From Pseudofrankia inefficax (GTDB taxonomy: Bacteria > Actinomycetota > Actinomycetes > Frankiales > Frankiaceae), in NCBI RefSeq assembly GCF_000166135.1, contig NC_014666.1:5642001-5706000 (forward strand): a stretch of DNA of 64,000 nt, in the 5' to 3' direction. Positions 5,590 through 42,755 of the stretch are shown here, piece after piece (position 1 is the first letter of the stretch; each line of letters starts with the position of its first letter). Under the pieces are notes generated by a model that saw only the letters and a program-made list of their open reading frames with translations, had not been told where the DNA came from and ran no database searches. A program made the translations under genes and the position numbers.

Positions 5590-6393
5590 ATGAGGTCCCA
5601 CCACCACGGACCAGCTCCGGACGACTCCGGCGCTGACCCACGGCTGCACCACGGCCCGTTCCGCCGGCACGGTCACTGGCACGGGCATCACCCTGGTCCG
5701 GGCATGGGCCCGGTTCCGGGCGACCTGGGCCCGATTCCCGGCCCGCCGCCCATGGGCCCCGGCCCCGGCGCGGGTCCCTGGGGGCCTGGCCCCTGGGGGC
5801 CGCGGCTGCGGGCCGGGCACCGCGGCGGCGGAGGCGGCCGTGGCCGCGCCGGTCGCGGTGACGTGCGCGCCGCCGTCCTGCTGCTGCTGGCCGACGGCCC
5901 GCGGCACGGCTACCAGCTGATGCAGGCGATCGCGGAGCGCACCGGCGGCGCCTGGCAGCCCAGCCCCGGCGCGGTCTACCCGACGATCAGCCAGCTCGAG
6001 GACGAGGGCCTGGTCACGGTCACGGCCGACGGCGGGCGCCGGCTGGTCACGATCACCGAGGCCGGGCAGGCCTACCTCGCCAAGAACCGGGACACGATCG
6101 GCGACCCGTTCGCGGCGTTCACCGCCAGGGCCGGCCGCGCCGGCGGCGTCGACCTGCTCGGCGCCGTGCAGGAACTGTCCGGTGCCGTCTGGCAGGTGGC
6201 CCGAGCCGGCGACGCGGGCCAGACCGCCGCCGCTCACAAGGTGCTCACCGACGCCCGGCGCGCCCTCTACCTGCTGCTCGCCGGCGAGCCGTCCGACGCT
6301 GCCGAGACCGGAGCCACCGGCTCCACGGCCACGGCGTCCGAGGCCCCCGCCGCGGCGCAGGAGCCACCGGCGACCGAGGCTCCGGCCGAGTAG
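5590..6393 (+). CDS. PadR-family regulator with His/Gly/Pro-rich N-terminal tail
   Basis: 267 residues; ATG 5590 has AAGGAG seven bases upstream. Residues 1-95 are unusual: ten histidines fall within the first 34 residues, followed by Gly/Pro-rich sequence. Residues about 96-175 are the PadR winged helix (LLLLADGPRHGYQLM, then SPGAVYPTISQLEDEGLV and RRLVTITEAGQ). The C-terminal part is helical (dimer arm) and ends in an Ala/Glu/Pro-rich tail. PadR proteins repress transcription and respond to small molecules; here the histidine cluster suggests metal sensing, which would suit the metalloprotein operon next door, but that is inference. An operator candidate lies at 5397-5422. Confidence 0.88.
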   Translation: MRSHHHGPAPDDSGADPRLHHGPFRRHGHWHGHHPGPGMGPVPGDLGPIPGPPPMGPGPGAGPWGPGPWGPRLRAGHRGGGGGRGRAGRGDVRAAVLLLLADGPRHGYQLMQAIAERTGGAWQPSPGAVYPTISQLEDEGLVTVTADGGRRLVTITEAGQAYLAKNRDTIGDPFAAFTARAGRAGGVDLLGAVQELSGAVWQVARAGDAGQTAAAHKVLTDARRALYLLLAGEPSDAAETGATGSTATASEAPAAAQEPPATEAPAE

Positions 6394-6399
6394 CCGCCA

Positions 6400-6427
6400 G
6401 CCGGCCCGGCCGCACGGCCGGGCCGGC
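6400..6427. terminator. Strong GC hairpin after padR
   Basis: A perfect 13-base inverted repeat (GCCGGCCCGGCCG / CGGCCGGGCCGGC) with a two-base loop starts six bases after the padR stop. There is no T run, as is usual for actinobacterial terminators. Confidence 0.7.
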
Positions 6428-6674
6428 CCGCCGGCCGCCGGGCCGTATGGCACCGATTGGCGCGACAAAGGACCGGTATCCGGCGCGGGACAGGTCACCA
6501 AACCGCCGCGTTGTCACGAATTCCCAAGCGGGTTCCCCGCTCCGCGCGCGGCTTACCTCGTGATTGTCGGCGCACGAGACCGGTGTCGCTGGAAACCACA
6601 GGACATCCGGGCGGCCCGCCGGCCCGGATTGTGTGGCGCGACCCGCGCACCATCAAGGCCGTATAAAGGACACC

Positions 6675-7412
6675 ATGACCTCCGCCGGGCCCATACCTCT
6701 CCTGATCGTTGGCGCCGGCGGACTGTCACGGGAGGCGGCCGAGGCCGCCCGCGCGTCCGGCGATCACCACGTCGTCGGCTTCCTGGACGACAACCCGTCG
6801 CTGTGGGGCGCGCCGATCGGCGGTGCCCAGGTGCTCGGCGGGATGGACCGGGTCGCCCAGTACCCGCGGGCCCGGCTGTTGCTCGGCCCGGGAACCGGCC
6901 GCTCGCGCGCGGTGCTGCGCCACCGGCTGGAGGAGATGGGGGTGACGGGCGACCGGTACACCAGCGTGATCCACCCGCGGGCCGTGATCCCACCGTCCTG
7001 CGCGGTCGGCCAGGGCTCGATCCTGCTCGCCGGCGTGGTGCTGACCGCGGACGTCACCCTCGGGGAGCACGTCGTGGTGATGCCGAACGTCGTGCTCACC
7101 CATGATGTCGTCGTCGAGGACTACGCGACCGTGTGCGCCAACGCGTCACTGGCCGGCAGCGTGCGGGTCCGGGCCGGGTCCTACATCGGCCAGAACTGCA
7201 CGATCCGCGAGGGCCTGACCATCGGCGCCTGGTCGCTGGTCGGGATGGGCGCGGCCGTCACCCGGGACGTCGGCGACGCGGAGGTCTGGGCCGGAGTGCC
7301 CGCCGAGCTGATCCGTCCGTCCGCCGGGCCGCCGCCGGTCTGGACCGGCCCCGCGCCGGCCCGGGCCAGGGGCCGGTACGCGCTGCCCGGGCCGCCGAGC
7401 CGGGGCGTGTGA
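6675..7412 (+). CDS. PglD/NeuD-like sugar O/N-acyltransferase (left-handed beta-helix)
   Basis: 245 residues. The N-terminal third is a Rossmann-like sugar-binding domain (LLIVGAGGLSREAAE, then VVGFLDDNP), as in PglD and NeuD. The rest is made of hexapeptide repeats of the left-handed beta-helix ([LIV]-G-x4), for example AVGQGSILLAGVVL and TLGEHVVVMPNVV, ending in WAGVPAELIRP. Such trimers acetylate nucleotide-linked or free sugars. The histidine in LTHDVVVEDYA is a good match for the catalytic base. The gene lies before a kinase, a cellulose-synthase-like glycosyltransferase and a GH26 hydrolase, so it may decorate the polysaccharide they make. GGA lies just upstream of ATG 6675. Confidence 0.85.
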   Translation: MTSAGPIPLLIVGAGGLSREAAEAARASGDHHVVGFLDDNPSLWGAPIGGAQVLGGMDRVAQYPRARLLLGPGTGRSRAVLRHRLEEMGVTGDRYTSVIHPRAVIPPSCAVGQGSILLAGVVLTADVTLGEHVVVMPNVVLTHDVVVEDYATVCANASLAGSVRVRAGSYIGQNCTIREGLTIGAWSLVGMGAAVTRDVGDAEVWAGVPAELIRPSAGPPPVWTGPAPARARGRYALPGPPSRGV

Positions 7413-7435
7413 CGCGGCTCCGGCCGTTGATCTCG

Positions 7436-7509
7436 CGCGCGGCCGTACGCAGCAATTCGTGACTCAGCGCATTGAAACAATGACGCTGCGCGAAGCATTG
7501 GGCCGCGCG
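7436..7509 (+). promoter_or_regulatory. Structured leader upstream of the kinase gene
   Basis: An outer stem pairs 7436-7444 with 7501-7509 (9 bp), and inside it a long hairpin forms: CAGCGCATTG (7465-7474), loop AAA, then CAATG-A-CGCTG (7478-7488) with one bulged A. The whole lies 180 bases before the TTG start of the kinase. It may be a terminator after the acyltransferase gene, a protein operator, or a leader RNA. It matches no riboswitch class I know. Confidence 0.4.
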
Positions 7510-7689
7510 AGGAATGCGTTCCGCTAGGTGCCGGCGGCGTCGCCTTTGGCTACCACAGCACCCGGCGGCGCAGTTATCGGATTCTTGACCAGGCACGGGC
7601 CCGGGGGACGTTCGCCCCGCCGATCCGCGCAGGTAGAGTCTCGACAGGGCCTAGGAGTCGTGGTCCGTGGCGCGCGGGAGGGAGCGGCC

Positions 7690-9888
7690 TTGGAAGCATT
7701 GGGGCCGAACGACCCGACGACCGTTGGTAACTATCAACTCGCGGCCGTATTGGGCAGCGGCGGTATGGGACGAGTCTATCTGGCCTTCTCGCCGAGCGGG
7801 CGCCGGGTAGCGATCAAGATTATCCGCCCTGATCTCGTCCAGCAACGACACATTCGGCTGCGGTTCGCCCGCGAGGTGGCCGCTTCCCGGGCCGTGAACG
7901 GTTTCTTCGCGGCGGGTGTCATCGACGCCGATCTGGAAGCCAATCCGCCCTGGCTCGCCACGGCCTTCATTCCGGGCCCGTCTCTCAACGCCGCCGTGCG
8001 TGACGCCGGGTCGCTTCCGGTCGCGTCGGTGCGTGCCCTCGGCGCCGCTCTGGCGGAGGCCCTTTCCGCCGTCCATTCCGCCGGACTGATCCATCGGGAC
8101 CTGAAGCCGGCGAACGTGCTGCTGGCCCCCGACGGTCCCCGGCTGATCGATTTCGGAATATCGGCACTCGAGGACTCGGGATCGCTCACCCATGCCGGCG
8201 CGGTGATGGGCTCCCCCGGTTACATGTCGCCGGAACAGATAAACGGCGAGACGGTGACAACAGCCACCGACATCTTCGCGTTCGGCGCCGTCCTCACGTT
8301 CGCGGTCACCGGCACCGGCCCGTTCGGGGTCGGATCGCTGCCGTCGATGCTCTACCGCAGCGTGCACAACCCACCGGACCTCACCAAGGTCCCGGACGAA
8401 CTGCGCCCCCTGCTCGCTCGCTGCCTGGACAAGGATCCCGCGCGGCGGCCAGACCTGAACACGATTCTGCGGGAGCTGACCGGGGGCCGGCCGGCCGCCG
8501 ACATGTTCCCGCCGGGCTGGCTGCCCGCCGCCCTCTCGAAGACGCCGATCCCGACCGGGCCGATGCCGATACCGGCGGTAGGCCCGACGCCGACGCCGAT
8601 CGGCACCACGCCCGTCCCGATGCCCTGGCTGGAAGACAGCCCGGTTCCGTCGGCGGCGCGTGAGTCCGGTCGGCCGCCGAACGAGGCCACCCGGGAACTG
8701 ACCATCCCGTCCACGCCGCCGGTGCGGACGAGCGGACTGCCGACCCAGCTCGCGCCGGTGCCGTCCGTGCCGTCCCTGGGCAGCACCACTCCCGAGCCGG
8801 CCTCGGAGCCGGCCAGGCAGGGGCCGAGCCGCCGCCTGCTCCTGGGCGGGGCGATCGGTGTCGTCGCGGCCGCCGCGGCCGGGACGACGGCCTGGCGCCT
8901 GCTCGACGACGGCGGCCAGCCGTCCACCCCCGCGAGCCCGCCCGGGACCGTCCGCTGGCGGCTGTCCACGACGGGGACCGTGCTGGGCCGTCCCCGCGTC
9001 GCCGGCGACCTGGTGTACGCGGGCAGCAACGACGGAACCCTTTACGCGGCCCAGATCTCCAGCGGCAGGCAGGTCTGGAAGTTCACCACCGGCGGCGCGA
9101 TCGGTTCCACCCCGCTGGCCCTCGGCGGCATCGTCTACCTCGGCGGCGACGACGGCTACCTGTACGCCTTCGACGCCGCCACCGGCCGCACGCGCTGGAA
9201 GTACCACACCGACGGGATCGTGCACTCCCCCGCTGCCGGCGGCGGCCTGGTGTACGTCGGAAGCGCCGACGCCCACCTTTACGCGCTGGACGCGACCAGC
9301 GGTGCGTTCCGGTGGAAGTTCAAGGCCCAGAACGACACCCATTCACCGGCCCTGGCCGGCGAGACCGTGTACGTCGGGAGCAGCGACACCAACCTCTACG
9401 CCGTGGACGCCTTCTCGGGAAACCCGCGCTGGGCGTTCCCCACCAAGGGCGCGGTCTCCGGCACGCCGGCCGTTCTCGGCGGAATGGTCTACTTCGGCAG
9501 CACCGACGGAAGTCTCTACGCGGCCGACATCGGCGGCGGGAACCGGGCCTGGCAGTTCGACCACGCCGCCGTCGGCGCCGGGCCGGCCATCGCGAACGGC
9601 ACGGTCTACGTCGGCGGCGCCCAGAGCAGCCTGTACGCGCTCAGCGCCACGACCGGCCAGAAGGTGTGGACGTTCGCTGCCTCAGGGGACGTCGGCGCAC
9701 CCGTGGTGGTGGACGGCACCGTCTACTTCGGCACCAGCGACGCCAATCTCTACGCGGTCGACGCGGTCAAGGGCACCCTGCGCTGGAAGGTCACCGCGTC
9801 CAGCGGCGTGCACTCGGTCGCGGTCGCCGACGGCACCGCGTACTTCGGGACCGACGACAACAACCTGTACGCGGTCAGCGTCCGCTGA
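7690..9888 (+). CDS. Membrane Ser/Thr protein kinase with C-terminal PQQ beta-propeller
   Basis: 732 residues from TTG 7690, chosen because GGGAGGGAG stands five bases upstream and the kinase fold starts at residue 14. Kinase landmarks are GSGGMGRVY (22-30), K43 in VAIKI, HRDLKPANV (135-143) and DFG (154-156), so it should be active. A Pro/Thr-rich linker (about 270-375) leads to one membrane helix (about 381-405). Outside are eight repeats of about 40 residues with the signature VYxGSxDxxLYAxDAxxGxxxWxF, a PQQ-type eight-bladed propeller that senses a ligand, as in PknD-like kinases. It stands 15 bases before a glycosyltransferase and probably controls polysaccharide synthesis in response to a cell-surface signal. 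Confidence 0.93.
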   Translation: MEALGPNDPTTVGNYQLAAVLGSGGMGRVYLAFSPSGRRVAIKIIRPDLVQQRHIRLRFAREVAASRAVNGFFAAGVIDADLEANPPWLATAFIPGPSLNAAVRDAGSLPVASVRALGAALAEALSAVHSAGLIHRDLKPANVLLAPDGPRLIDFGISALEDSGSLTHAGAVMGSPGYMSPEQINGETVTTATDIFAFGAVLTFAVTGTGPFGVGSLPSMLYRSVHNPPDLTKVPDELRPLLARCLDKDPARRPDLNTILRELTGGRPAADMFPPGWLPAALSKTPIPTGPMPIPAVGPTPTPIGTTPVPMPWLEDSPVPSAARESGRPPNEATRELTIPSTPPVRTSGLPTQLAPVPSVPSLGSTTPEPASEPARQGPSRRLLLGGAIGVVAAAAAGTTAWRLLDDGGQPSTPASPPGTVRWRLSTTGTVLGRPRVAGDLVYAGSNDGTLYAAQISSGRQVWKFTTGGAIGSTPLALGGIVYLGGDDGYLYAFDAATGRTRWKYHTDGIVHSPAAGGGLVYVGSADAHLYALDATSGAFRWKFKAQNDTHSPALAGETVYVGSSDTNLYAVDAFSGNPRWAFPTKGAVSGTPAVLGGMVYFGSTDGSLYAADIGGGNRAWQFDHAAVGAGPAIANGTVYVGGAQSSLYALSATTGQKVWTFAASGDVGAPVVVDGTVYFGTSDANLYAVDAVKGTLRWKVTASSGVHSVAVADGTAYFGTDDNNLYAVSVR

Positions 9889-9903
9889 AAAGGGGGAGGA
9901 CGC

Positions 9904-11781
9904 TTGGCGGTCGCCAGGCACAGAGCCGCGCGGCGGCTGGTGAGAGGCACCCGTCGTAGCACCGCGGTCCGGGTCGCCTATGCCCGCTGCGCCGAGGCCT
10001 GTGGGCCGCTGACCACGCCGCGGGGCGACAACCCGCGGGTGGAGTTCCGCTCCGTCGTGCCACCGGGCCGCCGGTTGGCACTGACCCTGTTGTTCCTGTT
10101 CACCGCGCTGGTGAACCTGATCTTCGTCGGCTGGCTGCTGCTGCCGGCGCATGTGCCCGGTGCCGGCGTCGCCGGCACGGGCGACTGGCGGCTGTTCCTG
10201 GCCCGCGTGAGCTTCTGCCTCGTAGTCCTCGTCGAGGTCATCAGGATCGTCCAGGTCTCCATCATCGGGATACTCGCCTGGCACGCCCGGGACCCGGTGC
10301 CCCTCGTCGCGCCGCCCGGGCTGCGGGTCGCGGTGCTCACGACGATCGTCCCCTCGAAGGAGCCCGTCTCCGTCGTGGCGAGAACGCTGGGCGCGATGCG
10401 GGAGATCGCCTATCCGGACGGCTTCCTGACCGCCTGGATCCTGGACGAGGAGAACGATCCCGAGGTTCAGCGAGTCGCCGAGGACCTGGGTGTCCTGCAT
10501 TTCAGCCGCCGCGGCCGCCCGGAGTACAACCAGCCGGCCGGGGAGTTCCGGGCCAGGAGCAAGGCGGGAAACCACAACGCCTGGCGTGCCGAGCACGAGA
10601 GCCACTACGACGTGGTCGCCCAGATGGACCCCGACCACGTCCCGCTCACCTGTTTCCTGGAACGCACCCTGGGCTATTTCCGTGACCCGGACGTCGCCTT
10701 CGTCGTCGCTCCCCAGGTCTACGGGAACATGCTGGAGAACCTGGTGGCACAGGGCGCCTCGATGCAGCAGTACCTGTTCAACGGGGTGATCGAGCGCGGC
10801 GGGAACGGCCTCGACGCGCCGCTGCTCATCGGCACGAACCACCTGTACCGGCCGGCGGCCTGGCGACAGATCGGTGGCTACCAGGACTCGATCATCGAGG
10901 ACCACCTGACCAGCATGCGCGTCCAGGGGACGATCAACCCGGCGACCGGGAACCCCTGGAAGGGCGTCTACACCCCCGACGTGATCGCGATCGGTGAGGC
11001 GCCCACCACCTGGACCGACTACTTCAACCAGCAGAAACGGTGGGCGTACGGCGTCTGGGACGTCAAGCTGCGCCGCCGGGCGAAGGCCGGGATCAGGCTG
11101 CGGGCCCGCCAGCGGCTGCTGTACGGAATGGTGCAGTTCTACTACCCGAGCGTCGCGACGAGCCTGCTGTTCGGCAGCCTGGCGACGGTCGGCTACCTCG
11201 TTTTCGGCGCCTCAGCGGTCCACCTGCGCGGGGGATCGTGGCTCACGCTGTGGACGGCCGCCCTGGGCAGCTGGGTCAGCATGTGGCTGTGGCTGCGCCG
11301 GTTCAACCTCGCCGAGCACGAGAGGCGTGAGATCGGCCTACCGGGCATGGCGCTCGCCCTGTTCGCCGGTCCGATCTACCTGTCCGCCGCGTGCGCGGCG
11401 GTGCTGCGCCGGCGCCTGGCCTACGCGGTGACCGCGAAGGGCGAGCTGCGCAGCACCGAGTCGCTCCGGACCTTCCGGCTGCACCTGGCCTGGGCCGTCG
11501 TCGCCGCGACGCTGCTGTGCGTCAACCTCACCGTGAACCACGGCCGCTTCGCCCCGCCGCAGCTCTGGGCGCTGCTCGCGCTGCTGATCGGGCTGTCGCC
11601 ACCGTTGCTGTCCGTGCGCCGGACGATCGCCGCGCGGCGCAGGGACCCGGCGGCCGGTGGCCCGGCCGGGACGGTCCCGCCCCCCGCCCGCGTGCATGTC
11701 GCGGCTGAACCGAGGGAGTCCCAGCTCCTGCTGACGGCTCGGCTCGCCGAGGAGAGCTCCGTCACGGAGAACGGCCCGTGA
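9904..11781 (+). CDS. Cellulose-synthase-like family 2 glycosyltransferase (membrane)
   Basis: 625 residues from TTG 9904 behind GGGGGAGGA. Two membrane helices (about 60-125) precede a GT-A domain with the processive GT2 motifs: DEEND near D181, MDPDH near D242, TNHLYRP, IIEDH (D333, the base) and QQKRW (376-380, the QxxRW acceptor motif). About four or five more helices follow. These are the marks of BcsA-like synthases that build a beta-linked chain from UDP- or GDP-sugars and push it out of the cell. No PilZ domain is fused. It overlaps the GH26 hydrolase gene by four bases (GTGA), like bcs operons that include a cellulase. Confidence 0.9.
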   Translation: MAVARHRAARRLVRGTRRSTAVRVAYARCAEACGPLTTPRGDNPRVEFRSVVPPGRRLALTLLFLFTALVNLIFVGWLLLPAHVPGAGVAGTGDWRLFLARVSFCLVVLVEVIRIVQVSIIGILAWHARDPVPLVAPPGLRVAVLTTIVPSKEPVSVVARTLGAMREIAYPDGFLTAWILDEENDPEVQRVAEDLGVLHFSRRGRPEYNQPAGEFRARSKAGNHNAWRAEHESHYDVVAQMDPDHVPLTCFLERTLGYFRDPDVAFVVAPQVYGNMLENLVAQGASMQQYLFNGVIERGGNGLDAPLLIGTNHLYRPAAWRQIGGYQDSIIEDHLTSMRVQGTINPATGNPWKGVYTPDVIAIGEAPTTWTDYFNQQKRWAYGVWDVKLRRRAKAGIRLRARQRLLYGMVQFYYPSVATSLLFGSLATVGYLVFGASAVHLRGGSWLTLWTAALGSWVSMWLWLRRFNLAEHERREIGLPGMALALFAGPIYLSAACAAVLRRRLAYAVTAKGELRSTESLRTFRLHLAWAVVAATLLCVNLTVNHGRFAPPQLWALLALLIGLSPPLLSVRRTIAARRRDPAAGGPAGTVPPPARVHVAAEPRESQLLLTARLAEESSVTENGP

Positions 11782-35457: not shown

Positions 35458-35537
35458 CTGTCGCCCCTCCCCCAGCCGGGTCGCGTTCCCGACAAGGATC
35501 GCGGAACCGGGCCGGTTGGGGCCGCGTCCAACCGGCC

Positions 35538-36842
35538 ATGCTTGCGCGACGTGAGTTCCTGCGAGGCGCGGTCCTGGCCGCGGCCGGTCTCGGGGTGGGC
35601 ACGCTGGCCACCGGATGCGGATCGAACGGCTCCCCCAGCGGGACGGTGGCGACGGCAGGGGACCGGAGCCGCGCGGCCGCGGACGGCGCCGACCTCCCCG
35701 GGGCAGCCGCCGCCGTCAGCGCCTTCAGCGCCGAGCTGTACCGGCGGCTCTCGGCGGCCGCCACGGGCAACCTGATCTGCTCGCCGTACTCGGCGGTCAT
35801 GGCCCTGGCCATGGCGCGCGCCGGCGCCGTCGGACGCACGGCCACGGAGCTGGACACCGTGCTGCACGCCCCGACGGCCGGTGGCGGCGACCCGCTGGGC
35901 CCCGGGTTGAACGCGCTGGCCCTGACGCTGGACGCCCGAGCCGGCGCGCGCAAGGACATGCACGGCGCGAAGGCGACGATCACCCTCGACGTGGCGAACG
36001 CGCTCTGGGGCCAGGACGGCGAGAAGTGGGAGGCGCCGTTCCTGACCACCCTGGCCCGGCACTACGGCGCGGGCATGCGGCTCGTCGACTACCGCGCCGA
36101 CTCGGCCGGCGCCGCGAAGGCGATCAACGCCTGGACCTCGCAGCAGACCAAGGGCCGCATACCCAAGATCGTCGACGGCCTGGACCCGTCCACCCGCCTG
36201 GTACTCGCCAACGCGCTCTACCTGCGTGCCCCCTGGAACTCGCCGTTCGGCGACGCCCAGCCCGCCCCGTTCACCCGCCTCGACGGCTCGGTCGTCCAGG
36301 CCCAGCTGATGAGCGTCGACGCCTACGACGCGGGTTACGCGACCGGGCCGGACTGGCAGGCGGTCGACGTCCCGTACGCCGGCGGCGAGCTGGCGATGGC
36401 GGTGATCCTGCCCGACCAGGGCCGGTTCGAGGCGGTCCGCGCCGCCCTCGACGGGACCGCGCTACGCCGCCTGCTGACCGGCCTGCAGGTGACCGGCGTC
36501 CAGCTGGACCTGCCGAAGTGGACGACGCGCACCCGCGTCCGCCTCGACGACGCGCTGGTCGCGCTGGGCATGCCGACCGCGTTCGGCGACAGCGCCGACT
36601 TCAGCGGCATGACCACCACCGAGAGGCTGTCCATCGCCTCGGTCCCACAGGAGGCCTTCGTCGCCGTAGACGAGCACGGCACCGAGGCCGCGGCCGCCAC
36701 CGCCGTCGTCATGGGCGTCTCGGCGATCGTGGCACCGAGGCGCAAACTGACCGTCGACCGCCCCTACCTGTACGTCATCCACGACCGCCCCACCGGAACG
36801 CCACTCTTCCTCGGCCACGTAACCGACCCGACCGCCGTCTGA
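35538..36842 (+). CDS. Serpin, Tat-exported lipoprotein
   Basis: 434 residues from ATG 35538. The start MLARREFLRG is a twin-arginine signal ending in lipobox LATGC (C27), so the protein folds in the cytoplasm and is then anchored outside. The serpin body follows, with NLICSPYSAVMALAM, NALYLRAPW and the hinge E379-HGTEAAAATAVV of the reactive loop. The alanine-rich hinge fits an inhibitory serpin. Counting from P15 Gly381 puts P1-P1' near Ser395-Ala396, which would suit elastase- or subtilisin-like proteases. Bacterial serpins are uncommon. Possible roles are protection from secreted proteases of self, host or rivals. Confidence 0.92.
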   Translation: MLARREFLRGAVLAAAGLGVGTLATGCGSNGSPSGTVATAGDRSRAAADGADLPGAAAAVSAFSAELYRRLSAAATGNLICSPYSAVMALAMARAGAVGRTATELDTVLHAPTAGGGDPLGPGLNALALTLDARAGARKDMHGAKATITLDVANALWGQDGEKWEAPFLTTLARHYGAGMRLVDYRADSAGAAKAINAWTSQQTKGRIPKIVDGLDPSTRLVLANALYLRAPWNSPFGDAQPAPFTRLDGSVVQAQLMSVDAYDAGYATGPDWQAVDVPYAGGELAMAVILPDQGRFEAVRAALDGTALRRLLTGLQVTGVQLDLPKWTTRTRVRLDDALVALGMPTAFGDSADFSGMTTTERLSIASVPQEAFVAVDEHGTEAAAATAVVMGVSAIVAPRRKLTVDRPYLYVIHDRPTGTPLFLGHVTDPTAV

Positions 36843-36904
36843 GCCCGCGGGCCGCCGAGCCTCTCGGACCTTTGCACCGCGCGCCTGCCCCGGGCTCGCT
36901 CCGC

Positions 36905-37369
36905 TCAGACGCCAGCGCCATGTTCGAGGTATGTGGGGCCGGCCGAGGAGCGGACAGCGATGGCGGCTAGAACACGCCGGCTGAGGCGGGGCGGCAGGAC
37001 AGCCGGTATATCGGCGACGGCCGTGAAGCTCCAGCCTGTCAGTTCCTCTGCCTGGAGCGCGATGTCGCGTTGCCAGCTTCGAGCCAGGGTGCCGCCGTCG
37101 AAGAGAAAGAGGATCTTGTCACCTTCGTCCGCGGCCGGTGCCCAGTCGACGACGAGGAGTCCGCCGATGGGCGGTTCAATCCCGAGTTCTTCGCGTACTT
37201 CGCGGACGCAGGCTGCTCGGGGCGACTCGCCAGGCTCGACATAGCCGCCGGGTACCTCAAAGCCCCGTTTATAGGAGGGGTCGACAAGAAGCACCTGGCC
37301 GTCATCGTCGAAGAACAGTACTCCAGCCGCGACCCGGGGTGTCGCGATCGGCGGGGTTGCACTATTCAT
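36905..37369 (-). CDS. Nudix hydrolase A
   Basis: 154 residues. The Nudix box is complete: [18 protein letters not shown] then REELGI, matching GX5EX7REUXEEXGU. Its start overlaps the end of the GntR gene by eight bases, so both are made from one message. Nudix enzymes cleave nucleoside diphosphates linked to another group. The partner genes suggest a nucleotide-like metabolite. Base composition is less GC-rich than in the flanks. Confidence 0.92.
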
Positions 37370-38111
37370 AGCGGTAGACCACCGGGCTTCGGTCGGAACG
37401 GATCGCGCGCCGGGTCGCTTCCAGGATGCGCTGGTCCTGGTTGTAGCAGCGGCGCCAGATCAACAGGACATGGGCGCCCCTCGAAAGACCGAGTCGCGAC
37501 CGTTCGTCGGAGGTGGCTACGCGTTCGGTGACAGTATCTTCCCAGCGGAGCACGTGGCCGGCGTCTGTCATCCGCGAGTACATCCCGCCCGGACCTGTGC
37601 TGAGTTGCCGGAGGATGGGCAGTTCGCCGGTGATCTGCGGAGAAAACCACGTGGTGGCGATCTGGAGCGGCTCGCGCTGACCGTCGACCATCTGCCCCTG
37701 TGTGCGGTCGCGTTCCACAACGGTCGTGCCGATCGGCACCGCGAGCCAAGAAGCGATCTCAGCCGTGGCGCCGGTGTCGCGGATGACCGTGTCAGTGAAA
37801 GGCTCGGCCCCTGCCTCGACGACGCTGAGCAGAAAGCCTCGCCAGGCGCCCTCCTGCCGTGTGACATCGGAAGCCTGACGAGTCATGCCCGCTGACGGGC
37901 CAACGATGGCGCCCCGGCCGGGCACCAACTCGATCAGGTCGCGGTCGGCGAGCATCGCCAACGCGCGCCGCACGGTCGAGATCACAACGCCGTGTTGGGC
38001 AGCCAGGTTGGCCCACGACGGCAGCCAGGTGCCTGGCTTGAGGGTGCCATTCTCGATCTGGAGCGCGAGAGCGTCCGCGAGTTGGGTTGCCTTCGCGGGC
38101 TGGCGCGGCAT
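37362..38111 (-). CDS. GntR-family (HutC/UTRA) transcriptional regulator
   Basis: 249 residues. Residues 8-75 are the GntR winged helix ([22 protein letters not shown], read in two parts as a helix-turn-helix). Residues about 95-240 form a UTRA ligand domain with the typical [13 protein letters not shown] and a late [11 protein letters not shown]. Such proteins repress until a small metabolite binds. It is divergent from the SAHH-like operon; dyads at 38158-38167 and 38215-38250 are the likely operators. Confidence 0.9.
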
Positions 38112-38157
38112 GAACGGTAGTCCCTTCTGTAACCCGTGGTCGGGTCCTTGATCGCTC

Positions 38158-38252
38158 GTCTACAGACTACGGTTCGCCTACCCGCCTGGTGGTCCTGGCA
38201 CGCCAGCTATGCATCGTAAGGGCTTGACGAGTCCCTACGATCCCCTTACGGT
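38158..38252. promoter_or_regulatory. Divergent control region: GntR operators and promoter
   Basis: GTCTACAGAC (38158-38167) is a GT-N-GAC dyad of the HutC kind, 47 bases before the GntR start. CGTAAGGG (38215-38222) and CCCTTACG (38243-38250) are a perfect 8-base inverted repeat. Between and over them lies a promoter for the plus strand, TTGACG (38224-38229), 17 bases, TACGGT (38247-38252). A repressor on the dyad would block this promoter. The plus-strand leader to ATG 38336 would be about 75 bases. Confidence 0.6.
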
Positions 38253-38335
38253 TGCCTAGACGGCAATCGGGATGGCGGACGGTCGGCCAGAGCCTGGCGC
38301 GTCACTCGCGGCTAGCCCCTCGCGAAGGGACGATC

Positions 38336-39601
38336 ATGGTCGAAGCACCTGCCCATGCAGCCCAGGAGGCGTGTGCCCCCGCCATGGGCAGGGTGTCTGC
38401 CCATGGTTCCGGACTGGTGAGCCGAGAGCCCTTGCAGGGGGCCAACGCGGCGCTGAGTTCGGAGCCAGCGGCGCGGAAACGCATTGAAGGATACTTCCGT
38501 TCGGTCGGGCTACATTTCAGCGCAAGACCGGATGTGGCGGCAATGGTCGTGACGCATATGCTGCCGGACCGACCATATTTTCTCGATGGGCTGGCAGGGC
38601 TCACCAGCGTGGGAGCGGTGCTGCCGAAGCCGCGATCGTGTGATGCCGCCACAATGGAGGCCATTGCATCGCGGTACCGCTGCGATTCCTTAGATCGGGA
38701 GCGGTTCCTTGACCGGAGCCTCGTTCTCGACTATCTAGAGAGTCGCGTTGGCGGCCGAGACGTCGTTCTTCTAGACATTGGCGGCTATTTTGCTCCGACT
38801 CTCCGGTATGTGGTGGGCCGGTTCAGCGGCCACATCCTCGGTGTCGTCGAGGATACAGAGAACGGATACCAGAAGTACGTAGCGGCCGGGAAGCCTCCAT
38901 GCCCGGTGGTGTCCGTGGCTCGCAGCCCTCTCAAGCTGCCGGAAGACTACCTCGTCGGCCAGTCGATTGTCTTTTCGACAGAATCGCTCCTTCGGTTGCA
39001 CGGCGATATTCTTCACGGTGGCGAGACGTGCGTCATCGGCTATGGGAAGATCGGCCGTAGTGTCGCGAACACCCTGCGGGCAAAGTCTGTCCGGACGACC
39101 GTCTACGAGACTGATCCCGTACGAGCTGTGGAGGCGATGTCGCACGGCTTCTCAGTGAGCGGGTCCAAGGCGGCGGCGCTGAGGAGGGCGCACCTAGTGG
39201 TCTGCGCGACCGGGCAGCGTGCCCTGGTCGGCGACGACTTCGCTCGGCTGCGGCCAGGTGCGTACGTGGCATCGGTGACGTCGTCGGATGACGAGCTTGA
39301 TCTTACAAACGTCGTCCTGTCCTATGAAGAAAGAATCCTTGGCCCGCACGTCACTCGCCTGTCGGCCGGTGGGCACTATTTCTACCTTCTGAACCACGGA
39401 AATGCCGTGAACTTCGTGCACGGCGCGGCCGTCGGCCCCTTCATCTTTCTGGTACAGGGGGAGATTCTGGCGGCGGTGGCACTGCTCACCTCGGGCCACC
39501 TGATCGAACCGGGACTACACCAAGTCAACCGACAGATCCGCGAGACCATCGCGCGGGACTGGCTCAACGCCTTCAACGGCGAAGGAGAGACCGACCAATG
39601 A
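38336..39601 (+). CDS. S-adenosylhomocysteine-hydrolase-like protein
   Basis: 421 residues from ATG 38336, five bases after GAAGGGA. The fold order is that of SAHH: a substrate domain, then a Rossmann domain with VIGYGKIGRSVANTL (for GYGDVGKG), a TVYETDPVRAVEA strand and NHGNAVNFVHGAAVG. Some catalytic spots are kept: the Asp of LLDIGG, Glu in VVEDTENG, and Lys and Asp in LKLPEDYLVG, spaced as in real SAHH. Others are changed: the histidine before FDVEID is Ser (VTSSDDELD) and the GHPSF histidine is missing. So it binds NAD but probably handles another nucleoside-like substrate. It is the first gene of a three-gene overlapping operon. Confidence 0.85.
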   Translation: MVEAPAHAAQEACAPAMGRVSAHGSGLVSREPLQGANAALSSEPAARKRIEGYFRSVGLHFSARPDVAAMVVTHMLPDRPYFLDGLAGLTSVGAVLPKPRSCDAATMEAIASRYRCDSLDRERFLDRSLVLDYLESRVGGRDVVLLDIGGYFAPTLRYVVGRFSGHILGVVEDTENGYQKYVAAGKPPCPVVSVARSPLKLPEDYLVGQSIVFSTESLLRLHGDILHGGETCVIGYGKIGRSVANTLRAKSVRTTVYETDPVRAVEAMSHGFSVSGSKAAALRRAHLVVCATGQRALVGDDFARLRPGAYVASVTSSDDELDLTNVVLSYEERILGPHVTRLSAGGHYFYLLNHGNAVNFVHGAAVGPFIFLVQGEILAAVALLTSGHLIEPGLHQVNRQIRETIARDWLNAFNGEGETDQ

Positions 39602-40161
39602 ACAGTCTGATCGCCGCATCGGTCCGTAACTACCTCGGGCAGTACCCTGCCGAAGAAACTGCACTCGCGCCGCTACTGGAACTGGCAGAGAAACCCGCGC
39701 CCATAGCGTCACGATCCACTACCCCCGGGCATGTCACATGCGGCGCGCTGGTCGTGAATGAAGACGGAAGGATACTCCAGATTCATCACAAGACGCTCAA
39801 CCGGTGGCTCCTGCCAGGCGGTCACGTGGAGCCCGGTGACGCAACGCCACTTGTGGCGGCCATCCGGGAGCTAGCGGAGGAGACTGGGATCGATGCATCG
39901 CAGGTGATACCGATCGGCGGCGGCCCTGTCGACATCGATGCGCATGAGATACCAGCCAATCCCGGGAATGGTGAGCCCATCCACGTGCATTACGACTTCC
40001 GTTTCGCCATGAGGATCGCCGTACGCGAAGGTCTGCACCGAGTGGCCCTCCAACTCGACGAGGTAACGGACTACAGGTGGGTCGAACCCAGCGGGCTTGC
40101 CGGACGGCTCGCGGCGAAAGTCCCGACGTTCCTGGAAACACAGCACCAGGCCTGGACGTGA
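39598..40161 (+). CDS. Nudix hydrolase B
   Basis: 187 residues; ATG overlaps the SAHH-like stop by four bases. The Nudix box reads GGHVEPGDATPLVAAI then RELAEETGI, with Asp for the first Glu, otherwise complete. About 45 residues precede the fold. It differs clearly from Nudix A, so it is not a recent copy. Tight coupling with the SAHH-like gene points to one pathway. Confidence 0.9.
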   Translation: MNSLIAASVRNYLGQYPAEETALAPLLELAEKPAPIASRSTTPGHVTCGALVVNEDGRILQIHHKTLNRWLLPGGHVEPGDATPLVAAIRELAEETGIDASQVIPIGGGPVDIDAHEIPANPGNGEPIHVHYDFRFAMRIAVREGLHRVALQLDEVTDYRWVEPSGLAGRLAAKVPTFLETQHQAWT

Positions 40162-40349
40162 CGACCGGTGGCGCTGCCGGCATCACGATGCTCGCCGCGC
40201 GTCAGGAGGGGCCCTACCGGCTCGTACCCCACGAGTCGGGCCTAGGGCCGGGATTCGAGGTGACCAGCCTCAACCGACTCGCCGGCGAGTTCGAAGAAGA
40301 CGAGATCATCGACAGGCTGCACCGCGCTTCGCGATCACCCTCGCTGTAA
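40158..40349 (+). CDS. 63-residue hypothetical protein
   Basis: GTG 40158 overlaps the Nudix B stop (GTGA). The product has a short basic-aromatic start (QEGPYRLVPHE) and an acidic helix (GEFEEDEIIDRLHRA). No known domain. The overlap and similar base use suggest that it is a true third gene of the operon. Confidence 0.6.
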   Translation: MTTGGAAGITMLAARQEGPYRLVPHESGLGPGFEVTSLNRLAGEFEEDEIIDRLHRASRSPSL

Positions 40350-40371
40350 GCGAAGTAGCCGGCTCAGTCTG

Positions 40372-41985
40372 TCAGTGCCTGCCGAGGATGGTGCGGGCGG
40401 TGTTGCGGCCGGAGGCGCCCCAGACGCCGGCGCCGGGGAAGGTGGCGCCGCCGGTGAGGTAGAGGCCGGCTACGGGGGTCTTGTAGCGGGAGAGTTCGCG
40501 GCGGCGGCCAAGCAGGGCCGACATCACGCCGTCGGGGAAACTTGGGACGTAGCCGCGGGTCAGGTAGAACTCGCGTTCGTAGTCGGGCGGGGTCATCGCG
40601 CGCCAGTCGCGGACCGAGGCCAGCAGCTCGGGGCCGTTCTCGCAGATCGAGGCGTACTGCTCCAGCCAGCCCCAGGGCAGCGCTCGGCCGCCCCAGCCGC
40701 CCGCCAGTGCCCAGGGCGTCCAGAGGATCTCCTGGCTCAGCACGTGCGCGCCGGGCCCGGGGCTCATCGTCTGGTCCAGGACCGACGGGAGGTTCAGGAA
40801 GAACATCGGCCGCTCGGCGATCAGGCCTCGTTTCAGGCCGGCGGACGCGGCGATCTGCTGGTCGGGGGTGGGGCTGACGATCGTCGTCGGGACGTGGCGC
40901 AGGGCCTCGGGCAGCACGTCCTCGGGCAGCGCCGCGACGGCGCGGGGCGTCGGCAGCGCGGTGACGACCGCGTCGAGCTTCGACTCGTAACCGTCCTCGG
41001 CCGGGGCGGCGGCCCAGCGGCGGCGCAGCCGGGCGGCGGCGTGCTCGCCGGCGAGCCAGTCGACCAGCAGGGTCCGCGGGTCGGTGGCGTTGACGATGGT
41101 GTGCGCGGTGACCCGCCGGCCGTCGGCGAGGCGCACGCCGTGGACCCGGCCACCGTTGGCGTCGAGGCCGGTCACCCGCGCGCCGGTGACGACCCGACCG
41201 CCGTGGGCCCGCACGTACCGTTCGAGGGCGGCGGGCACCGCGCCGCTGCCACCGACCGGTCGGCCGACGCCGACAAGGTGGCGGATCGCGAGGCCCAGGG
41301 CGCCGAGGCCGGTGCCCGGCGCGTCCGGGCCCAGGCCCCAGACCGCAGGGCCGACGGTGTGGGTCGCCGCGACCACCCAGGAGGGCAGGCCGAACGACGT
41401 GAGCACGTCGACCAGGCTGCGGCGTGGCCAGTCGAGCAGCACGTTCGCGCCGCGCAGCCGTTGGCGGGCGACGACGGTGGCGACGATCGACGGCGTGGTC
41501 GGCCGGCCGCCCTGTACGGCCAGCACGAGCTTCGCCGCGGGCAGCGCGACGTCCAGGTAGCGCCGGTAGGCGTCGGCCGCGGCCGGGTCGACGCGGGCGA
41601 GGCCGTCGACGGTCCGCTCGATCGAGCGCCACTGGATGAAGACGGGCTCGTCGGCCCAGCCGACGCCGATGAGCATCGGGTCGACGTCGAGATAGCGCAG
41701 GCCGTGGGCGGCGAGGTCGAGCTCCTCCACGATCCCGCTCGCCCGGATCATCGTGTGGTCGCAGTTGCAGATGTTGACGCGGGCGCCGATCGCGTCGACG
41801 GTCGACGCGCACCCGCCGGCCTGCCCGCGGGCCTCCAGGACGACGACCGAGCGCCCGGCCCGGGCCAGGTAGGCCGCGCAGGCAAGCCCGTTGTGCCCGC
41901 CGCCGATGACGACGACGTCGGCCCGAGGGGGCAGCGAGTCCGGGACCGGGAGCCGCACGCCCGCGGCCGTGACGTCGGCCGTCAC
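40372..41985 (-). CDS. PYROXD2/phytoene-desaturase-like FAD oxidoreductase
   Basis: 537 residues from GTG 41985, which overlaps the creatininase stop. The N-terminal FAD fingerprint is VVVIGGGHNGLACAAYLARAG with VVVLEARGQAGG (given in two parts); the C-terminal FAD block is GLYLTGGATFPGAGVWGASG. This matches the PYROXD2/CrtI-like flavoprotein group. No carotenoid genes are nearby, so phytoene is unlikely. Coupling with a creatininase-type amidase suggests a shared catabolic route. Confidence 0.88.
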   Translation of the reverse strand: MTADVTAAGVRLPVPDSLPPRADVVVIGGGHNGLACAAYLARAGRSVVVLEARGQAGGCASTVDAIGARVNICNCDHTMIRASGIVEELDLAAHGLRYLDVDPMLIGVGWADEPVFIQWRSIERTVDGLARVDPAAADAYRRYLDVALPAAKLVLAVQGGRPTTPSIVATVVARQRLRGANVLLDWPRRSLVDVLTSFGLPSWVVAATHTVGPAVWGLGPDAPGTGLGALGLAIRHLVGVGRPVGGSGAVPAALERYVRAHGGRVVTGARVTGLDANGGRVHGVRLADGRRVTAHTIVNATDPRTLLVDWLAGEHAAARLRRRWAAAPAEDGYESKLDAVVTALPTPRAVAALPEDVLPEALRHVPTTIVSPTPDQQIAASAGLKRGLIAERPMFFLNLPSVLDQTMSPGPGAHVLSQEILWTPWALAGGWGGRALPWGWLEQYASICENGPELLASVRDWRAMTPPDYEREFYLTRGYVPSFPDGVMSALLGRRRELSRYKTPVAGLYLTGGATFPGAGVWGASGRNTARTILGRH

Positions 41986-42755
41986 CGACTGGTCTTGGGG
42001 TCGAAGCGGGCGATCTCCCGCAGCGACGCGGCCGCGGTCTCGACCATCGCCTCGTAGCGCTGCTTGCCGTGCTCGGCGGTGGCGCCGGTCGGGTCGCCGA
42101 TCGTGCCGTCGGTGCCGAAGTCGTCGGACAGCCAGCCGAACGACACCGACCGGCCGAAGCCGACCCGCTCGTACGACGCCAGGTGCTCGGGTACGGACCG
42201 GGTGCCCAGCTCGAGACGGACCAGCTCGGGACGCAGGTGCATCATGACCGACGTCTCCTCGATGCCGGCATGGATGCCCATGCCCAGCTCGGTGGCCGGC
42301 GAGGTCCCGCCCTGGTCCGGTGGCACCGACGGGTGCATCACGAACGTGCGCAGGCCGTGCGCGAGCCGCAGGTCACGGCTGGCGACCTGGAGCAGGGCGC
42401 TGTTGCCGCCGTGGCCGTTGAGGAACACCAGCCGCTGGATCGGCGTCGTCGCGAGGCAGCGGCCCAGGTCGTCGAGCATCGCCAGCATCGTCGTCGCGGA
42501 CAGCCACATCGTGCCAGCCGACCAGGCGTGCTCGTTGGACTTGCTGTAGGCCAGGGTCGGCAGCAGCAGCAGGTCGATCTCGTCGCCGTAGGTCGCCACG
42601 ACGTCGCGGCCCAGGGTGTCGGCGACGACCAGGTCCGTCGACAGCGGGAGATGTGGGCCGTGCTGCTCCACCGAGCCGACCGGCAGGACCGCGATCGCCC
42701 CCGGCGACAGGTCCGCGATCTCGGGAGCCCTCAGGTCGGCAAAGATCCGGGTCAT
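41982..42755 (-). CDS. Creatininase-family amidohydrolase
   Basis: 257 residues. The metal motifs of the family can be read: LPVGSVEQHGPHLPLSTD (Glu, His, Asp ligands), SNEHAWSAGTMWLS, NGHGGN and GIHAGIEETS. Members include creatininase, FAPy deformylase and MftE. No mycofactocin genes are seen. It is the first gene of a two-gene unit with the FAD oxidoreductase. Confidence 0.88.
   Translation of the reverse strand: MTRIFADLRAPEIADLSPGAIAVLPVGSVEQHGPHLPLSTDLVVADTLGRDVVATYGDEIDLLLLPTLAYSKSNEHAWSAGTMWLSATTMLAMLDDLGRCLATTPIQRLVFLNGHGGNSALLQVASRDLRLAHGLRTFVMHPSVPPDQGGTSPATELGMGIHAGIEETSVMMHLRPELVRLELGTRSVPEHLASYERVGFGRSVSFGWLSDDFGTDGTIGDPTGATAEHGKQRYEAMVETAAASLREIARFDPKTSR

Follow-up and report, generated by a model that had tools for sequence, protein, structure and literature searches.

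Analysis of a 64,000-nucleotide stretch of the Pseudofrankia inefficax genome (contig NC_014666.1, positions 5,642,001 to 5,706,000; hereafter the window) showed a low-GC insertion of foreign DNA at 36.8-40.4 kb that carries five open reading frames (ORFs). The conserved core of this island is a pair of adjacent genes, one for a protein resembling S-adenosylhomocysteine (SAH) hydrolase (SAHH), here called SAHHL, and one for a Nudix hydrolase, Nudix B. The remaining ORFs code for a GntR/UTRA regulator and a second Nudix hydrolase (Nudix A), which look like a module of their own, and for a 63-amino-acid (aa) product. With a probability of roughly 0.4, SAHHL and Nudix B are two enzymes of one horizontally transferred unit and would carry out consecutive steps on one nucleotide-like metabolite; the fact that they often travel together, and are sometimes fused, in very distant bacteria suggests a mobile pathway on a nucleotide-like compound. 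A more far-reaching version is doubtful and is offered tentatively: the pair may be a new, mobile and self-contained unit whose product is a nucleotide with a modified sugar, serving as signal, toxin or cofactor and formed in a redox-assisted reaction that the SAHH fold is not known to perform. Such a unit might be common to reduced Patescibacteria, in which it may take the form of a single bifunctional protein, and to Frankia, other actinobacteria, plasmids and viral contigs.

Nudix B was searched for within 2.5 kb of SAHHL, and 23 of the 36 loci have a Nudix-B-type gene next to SAHHL or fused with it. These loci came from 38 rows, L001/L013 and L003/L048 being probably the halves of one gene each. 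The sister strain Frankia sp. AgB1.9 was counted through L013 (the Nudix match at L001 is Nudix A), and the near-duplicates L042/L043 and the rows of lactic acid bacteria were counted apart. The partner was present in the actinobacterial and viral-contig loci (18/21), the Patescibacteria (4/4) and the other Bacilli contig (G860, 1/1), and absent from the loci of the lactic-acid-bacteria type (0/7) and from the others (0/3). At three Patescibacteria loci (L004, L005, L089) both are encoded as one protein of 551-561 aa, with the Nudix part first and SAHHL second, the reverse of the gene order elsewhere; the fusion gene of L004, from Moranbacteria, spans 5993-7648. The Nudix B match of L035 was shorter (171 bits). 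The distance matrices of SAHHL and Nudix B agreed over 15 loci (r 0.897, 0/5000 permutations), a figure that includes the contribution of common ancestry. The SAHH-like/Nudix pair was not found described in the literature searched, which largely leaves aside subscription journals. Candidate defence genes PDC-M30/M41 lie close to the Bacilli copy of the pair (L090:11731-13581, G860).

The original prediction had joined all five genes in one system and would fall if their homologues did not occur together elsewhere. For SAHHL and Nudix B, which recur together, it stands; for the full set it comes close to falling, and the five-gene system was rejected. Among the loci examined, the complete set occurs in the window and otherwise only in AgB1.9, where it is split over two contigs. 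No match to Nudix A or to the 63-aa product was seen beside SAHHL in the other loci viewed (few flanking genes each). The proposed metabolite pathway survives for the pair, not for the set of five, and for a signal as the product, to be sensed by the GntR/UTRA regulator, there is no support beyond domain names.

The distribution of SAHHL is rare, patchy and mobile, as seen from plasmids, viral contigs, the insertion and the tree. Hosts include Frankia, Parafrankia, Pseudonocardia, Streptomycetaceae, lactic acid bacteria, Rhizobium, Aeromonas, Moranbacteria and another patescibacterium. At E <=1e-40, with seed genomes (including that of the window) counted, SAHHL was found in 16/393 genomes of the window's class, 9 of the 16 being in the window's family, in 2/286 genomes of the phylum to which the Moranbacteria genome G393 belongs, in 2/250 of the class of G396 (Lactiplantibacillus) and in 1/97 of the class of G399. 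The copy of AgB1.9 is 97% identical to that of the window, and other relatives occur in Frankia and Parafrankia. On contig L046 of AgB1.9 (9379-10879) the last SAHHL codons are followed by a low-complexity stretch and another ORF, probably the result of an assembly error or rearrangement. SAHHL was carried by four viral contigs and by plasmids, and three phage records gave weak matches (26-27% identity over about half the length). The record L036 (NZ_AP026896.1, Aeromonas caviae) is titled a plasmid, has 4.94 Mb and 18 listed features and is probably a chromosome; it is therefore not evidence for SAHHL on plasmids. In the tree, in which several long rows are uncertainly placed, the Bacilli copy L090 fell into one cluster (98/95) with eight copies of actinobacterial and viral origin, at a different place from further actinobacterial copies, and L041 of the window's family clustered with three copies of other actinobacterial genomes (99/96). 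Short SAHHL fragments, likely remnants, were seen in two further genomes of the window's family at G015:C80:57587-57808 (53% identity) and G018:C33:9777-9911 (49%); they fall below the cut-off and are in no count. On a Rhizobium sp. CB3171 plasmid, an ORF pair that looks transposase-like by eye is present twice in tandem directly upstream of SAHHL (L039:6577-9898).

Two related genomes support the insertion. G001, 89-91% identical here, is matched by blastn up to 36,835 and from 40,372 onward, and in place of the island it holds other DNA, about 4.4 kb long. In G003 the match breaks off at 35,493, and the part that starts at 40,372 follows after only 13 bases. The idea of foreign, transferable DNA was supported. 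The spot at 35.5-40.4 kb is variable, since G003 here lacks a serpin gene as well as the island; this gene (35553-36839; PF00079, 285 bits) borders the island. On the other side, 40375-42755 holds the gene for an FAD-dependent oxidoreductase, matched in 8/8 genomes of the genus, and then a creatininase-family gene. The lower GC content noted earlier was also seen, 1-kb values being 0.62-0.67 between 37.0 and 40.0 kb versus 0.73-0.77 just outside (34.0-36.5 and 40.5-42.5 kb), but isolated dips to 0.65-0.66 occur elsewhere in the window too (12-13 and 33-34 kb). GC at third codon positions (GC3) of the five genes was 0.69-0.80 versus a mean of 0.902 (sd 0.077; 38 ORFs >150 aa of a crude gene list), and the lowest three values in that list were those of Nudix B, Nudix A and SAHHL.

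The AlphaFold2 model of SAHHL (pLDDT 88.2) superposed on SAHH 7zd9_A with Z 38.3 and 2.9 A over 358 residues at 20% identity, and SAHHL is thus predicted to have the whole SAHH fold at nearly full length. Across 17 aligned sequences the family has 33 invariant columns, including His74, Lys200, Asp204, Asn359 and G235/G237/G240 of the GxGxxG motif, which line up with SAHH. Positions were matched through the family alignment and an alignment to the host genome's own SAHH, with SAHH residue numbers (H55, D131, E156, N181, K186, D190, H301). His74 of the HMT motif stands for H55, Lys200 for K186 and Asp204 for D190, and the NAD motif is kept; D131 is replaced by Ile/Val, N181 by Ala, H301 by Ser and E156 mostly by Asp, also by G and M. 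Newly invariant are K98, S101, Y151-F152 and R196. Because D131, H301 and mostly E156 are replaced, SAHHL was not filed as an adenosylhomocysteinase. Public records name family members adenosylhomocysteinase or S-adenosyl-L-homocysteine hydrolase, a label that the residue pattern contradicts. A second SAHH-like group occurs in the Frankia-type genomes G001 and G022 (L045:7238-8803, L044:7534-9084) and, by eye, also has Thr-Ser where SAHH has Gly-His301. Its genes adjoin P-loop kinase-like and methyltransferase genes and a helix-turn-helix (HTH) regulator gene resembling, by eye, one near SAHHL in L006 and L040.

Nudix B (model pLDDT 87.9) was read against the Nudix box consensus. The REUxEE metal-binding part is intact and is preceded by one extra residue, and an invariant Asp81 takes the place of the first Glu of the box. 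A function could not be taken from solved relatives, as the best entry titles name no substrate. Streptomyces plasmids encode proteins of about 490 aa (L157:5989-7458, L160:5989-7476) with a Nudix-B-like first part and further weak Nudix-like matches behind it, and the genes of these proteins adjoin transporter, phosphotransferase and methyltransferase genes.

Building on the observed pairing, fusions, residue changes and patchy mobile spread, and on the predicted fold, the following order of steps, chemistry and regulation is proposed. From a nucleoside tri- or diphosphate conjugate, Nudix B would release a 5'-monophosphate by hydrolysis. SAHHL with NAD+ would then oxidise the 3'-hydroxyl of the ribose, Lys200 and Asp204 taking the parts of SAHH Lys186 and Asp190, so that H-4' would become acidic and the 5' substituent might be lost, or the sugar epimerised, before the hydroxyl is restored. 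The leaving group is guessed to be a good one such as phosphate rather than a thiol or water, because nothing in SAHHL corresponds to His301 and Asp131. Equally a guess is that phosphate might be bound by the basic residues that SAHHL has gained, as would suit a nucleotide coming from a Nudix enzyme. An oxidation-first mechanism is plausible. According to published work (PMC8599513), the SAHH homologue AgmF (angustmycin dehydratase) does not act on SAH but dehydrates a nucleoside in an NAD-dependent reaction, and its alanine mutants of H56, D129, K184, D188 and H299 were all inactive. Matched by motif and spacing, SAHHL appears to keep three of these five essential positions, the equivalents of D129 and H299 being replaced. 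The end of the SAHHL reaction must be a different one. In this strain the divergent GntR and Nudix A module, though separate and of a type that mobile elements carry too, probably regulates SAHHL and Nudix B.

Several results weigh against the two-enzyme reading. The NAD-redox activity of SAHHL is unproven because it is without the D129 and H299 equivalents, whose loss kills AgmF, and the C-terminal tail of SAHH (DHYRY in Frankia SAHH) is missing. None of its residues could be assigned to substrate binding. There was no Nudix B within 2.5 kb in 13 of the 36 loci (actinobacterial L014, L042 and L043, the seven of the lactic acid type, and L011, L036 and L039), so that either SAHHL can do without Nudix B or its substrate comes from a different enzyme; among these 13, the sequence ends 131 bases past SAHHL in L011 and 646 bases past it in L009. 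Nudix-B-type domains also occur in the multi-Nudix proteins of Streptomyces plasmids without SAHHL, and Nudix B is therefore not exclusive to it.

Other explanations were weighed against the same loci. The pair might destroy a damaged or foreign nucleotide, such as a nucleoside antibiotic, and spread as a protective trait, a house-cleaning role which is unlikely although the Nudix partner and the patchy, mobile distribution agree with it. An MFS transporter gene beside SAHHL on lactic acid plasmids points the same way, L037 having in addition a predicted efflux gene, mdeA, at a distance of about 5 kb, as do the Ham1-type pyrophosphatase and nucleotidyltransferase genes downstream in AgB1.9. 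In the three loci of the lactic acid type with flanks viewed (L037, L038, L088), SAHHL has genes for the MFS transporter and an HD protein immediately before it instead of a Nudix B partner, but no transporter was noticed next to SAHHL in the other loci viewed, where most neighbours were unscanned. The AgB1.9 genes, at L046:7384-8643 downstream of the 63-aa ORF, comprise a PDC-S09-like nucleotidyltransferase and the Ham1-type pyrophosphatase, both missing here from the window. The transporter of lactic acid bacteria would also suit the biosynthesis of a nucleoside natural product, with SAHHL as an AgmF-type dehydratase forming an exo-glycal. AgmF (PMC8599513) is a precedent, and the surroundings of SAHHL in L042 include Gfo/Idh/MocA and DegT aminotransferase genes and a nucleotide-kinase-like gene that scores at or below the Pfam cut-offs. 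This role is rather improbable given the replaced D129 and H299 equivalents; no angustmycin-type gene set was noticed beside SAHHL, though no search was aimed at one, and a large pathway fits badly because SAHHL is present in Patescibacteria, whose reduced genomes here measure 0.7-1.2 Mb.

Somewhat more improbable again is a system for phage defence or for conflict between mobile elements, in which nucleotides would be altered or depleted. It would account for SAHHL on viral contigs, plasmids and an island, for PDC-M30/M41 near the Bacilli copy and for PDC-S09 in AgB1.9 (ten neighbours of five loci were scanned), and the Nudix protein Pif, which acts in the conjugal immunity of pSAM2 (PMC3218068), offers a precedent. 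No PADLOC model matched SAHHL at E 0.01, and a known defence system was rejected; the one model that Nudix B matched was PDC-S07, weakly (24.2 bits), and Nudix A matched it too (36.6 bits). That SAHHL is an ordinary adenosylhomocysteinase with chance neighbours is highly improbable. It shares the fold, but reached 89.7 versus 275 bits (NF004005) and 82.6 versus 497.6 bits (TIGR00936) of the NCBIfam adenosylhomocysteinase cut-offs, its residues are replaced family-wide, and the pairing or fusion with Nudix B is recurrent. A regular SAHH is encoded elsewhere in the same genome, and a housekeeping role was rejected, in line with the original prediction.

The features of the island are listed in Table 1. 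The five ORFs were found where they had been placed before, and neighbouring genes overlap by 8, 4 and 4 bases. The SAHHL start was taken as the ATG; a longer ORF is possible from TTG 38252, and most family members align only from well past the ATG. Both Nudix proteins pass the Pfam NUDIX gathering score of 21.1, and the regulator passes those of GntR (50 versus 27 bits) and UTRA (47.2 versus 23.8 bits). The 63-aa ORF had no family match in Pfam or other profile scans and no plasmid match. A relative was found in AgB1.9 (68% identity over 60 aa) and none in the remaining SAHHL loci compared with that strain, and whether this ORF is a genuine gene with a function is unsure.

Table 1. Features of the accessory island and their positions in the window
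Feature	Position	Strand	Remarks
Nudix A, 154 aa	36905..37369	-	PF00293, 68.2 bits; partner of the GntR gene, apparently a separate module
GntR/UTRA regulator, 249 aa	37362..38111	-	PF00392 + PF07702; type found on plasmids too
Shared divergent control region	38112..38335		Half-site CGTAAGGG at 38215-38222, inverted at 38243-38250
SAHHL (SAHH-like), 421 aa from ATG 38336	38336..39601	+	PF00670 (AdoHcyase_NAD), 58.7 bits; predicted SAHH fold, distinct family
Nudix B, 187 aa	39598..40161	+	PF00293, 66.5 bits; frequent SAHHL partner
63-aa ORF, GTG start overlapping Nudix B stop	40158..40349	+	No family
Accessory island	36836..40371		blastn versus L152 and L154

The GntR/UTRA and Nudix A genes look like a module separate from SAHHL and Nudix B. 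In G011 their relatives stand side by side (64% and 66-67% identical), with no SAHHL match at family level in that genome, and in G015 both are present as fragments. Among the loci examined, Nudix A adjoins SAHHL only in the window and AgB1.9, and a GntR homologue is otherwise near SAHHL only in L035, L078 and L080 (for part of the loci few flanking genes were viewed). The regulator matched phrog_10724 (140.9 bits) and 263 plasmid records, with at most 34% identity among the 12 matches listed. One plasmid match lies in a replication and transfer region, divergent to a gene series ending in an FtsK/SpoIIIE gene and beside a primase gene. The G011 neighbourhood carries WhiB and ParA genes; an FtsK domain was not found in the L139 ORFs scanned, nor a match to one FtsK protein. 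Integrase, replication and FtsK-type transfer genes around GntR and Nudix A would mark an integrative and conjugative element (ICE); domain scans of the window covered the five ORFs and the serpin, FAD oxidoreductase and creatininase genes. According to published work (PMC3218068), Nudix genes are frequent in actinobacterial ICEs, some of which in Frankia carry KorSA-related GntR regulators. The context fits a recruited control module, with an ICE origin not proven.

The clear dyads described earlier in the control region were not above shuffled sequence, and as a sign of regulation they were rejected: 5 perfect inverted repeats (arms >=5, loops <=14) were counted versus 4.1 in shuffles, and the longest arm was equalled in 96% of shuffles. 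The half-site CGTAAGGG occurs nowhere else in the window than in its inverted pair, and at least two copies also arise in 18/100 shuffles. An inverted pair is also present upstream of the GntR homologue in G011 (L139), and in AgB1.9 only one of the two copies is intact.

The spread of the pair over very different hosts suggests a useful, compact nucleotide chemistry, and the natural Nudix-SAHHL fusion offers a single protein for a direct substrate search. If the reaction is new, it would be a further activity of the SAHH fold beside SAH hydrolysis and AgmF dehydration. Compared with SAHH, SAHHL shares the whole predicted fold, the NAD motif and the equivalents of His55, Lys186 and Asp190, and differs in the replaced D131, E156, N181 and H301, the new invariant residues, the missing tail and the score below the cut-offs. 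According to its description (PMC8599513), AgmF is likewise an SAHH homologue with another job and NAD-dependent chemistry on a nucleoside sugar, but it needs D129 and H299, neither of which SAHHL has, and its partners are five further pathway enzymes where SAHHL has a Nudix protein; the two are set apart by published description. For Nudix B, the best solved relatives are Nudix hydrolases of the 3fcm/3f6a type (3fcm profile 84.6 bits, Foldseek rank 1); Nudix B is set apart by Asp81 in place of the first Glu of the box and by the extra residue. The KorSA/Pif-type genes of actinobacterial ICEs resemble the island in combining a GntR regulator with a Nudix protein, both present here, a likeness drawn from their published description and not from sequence.

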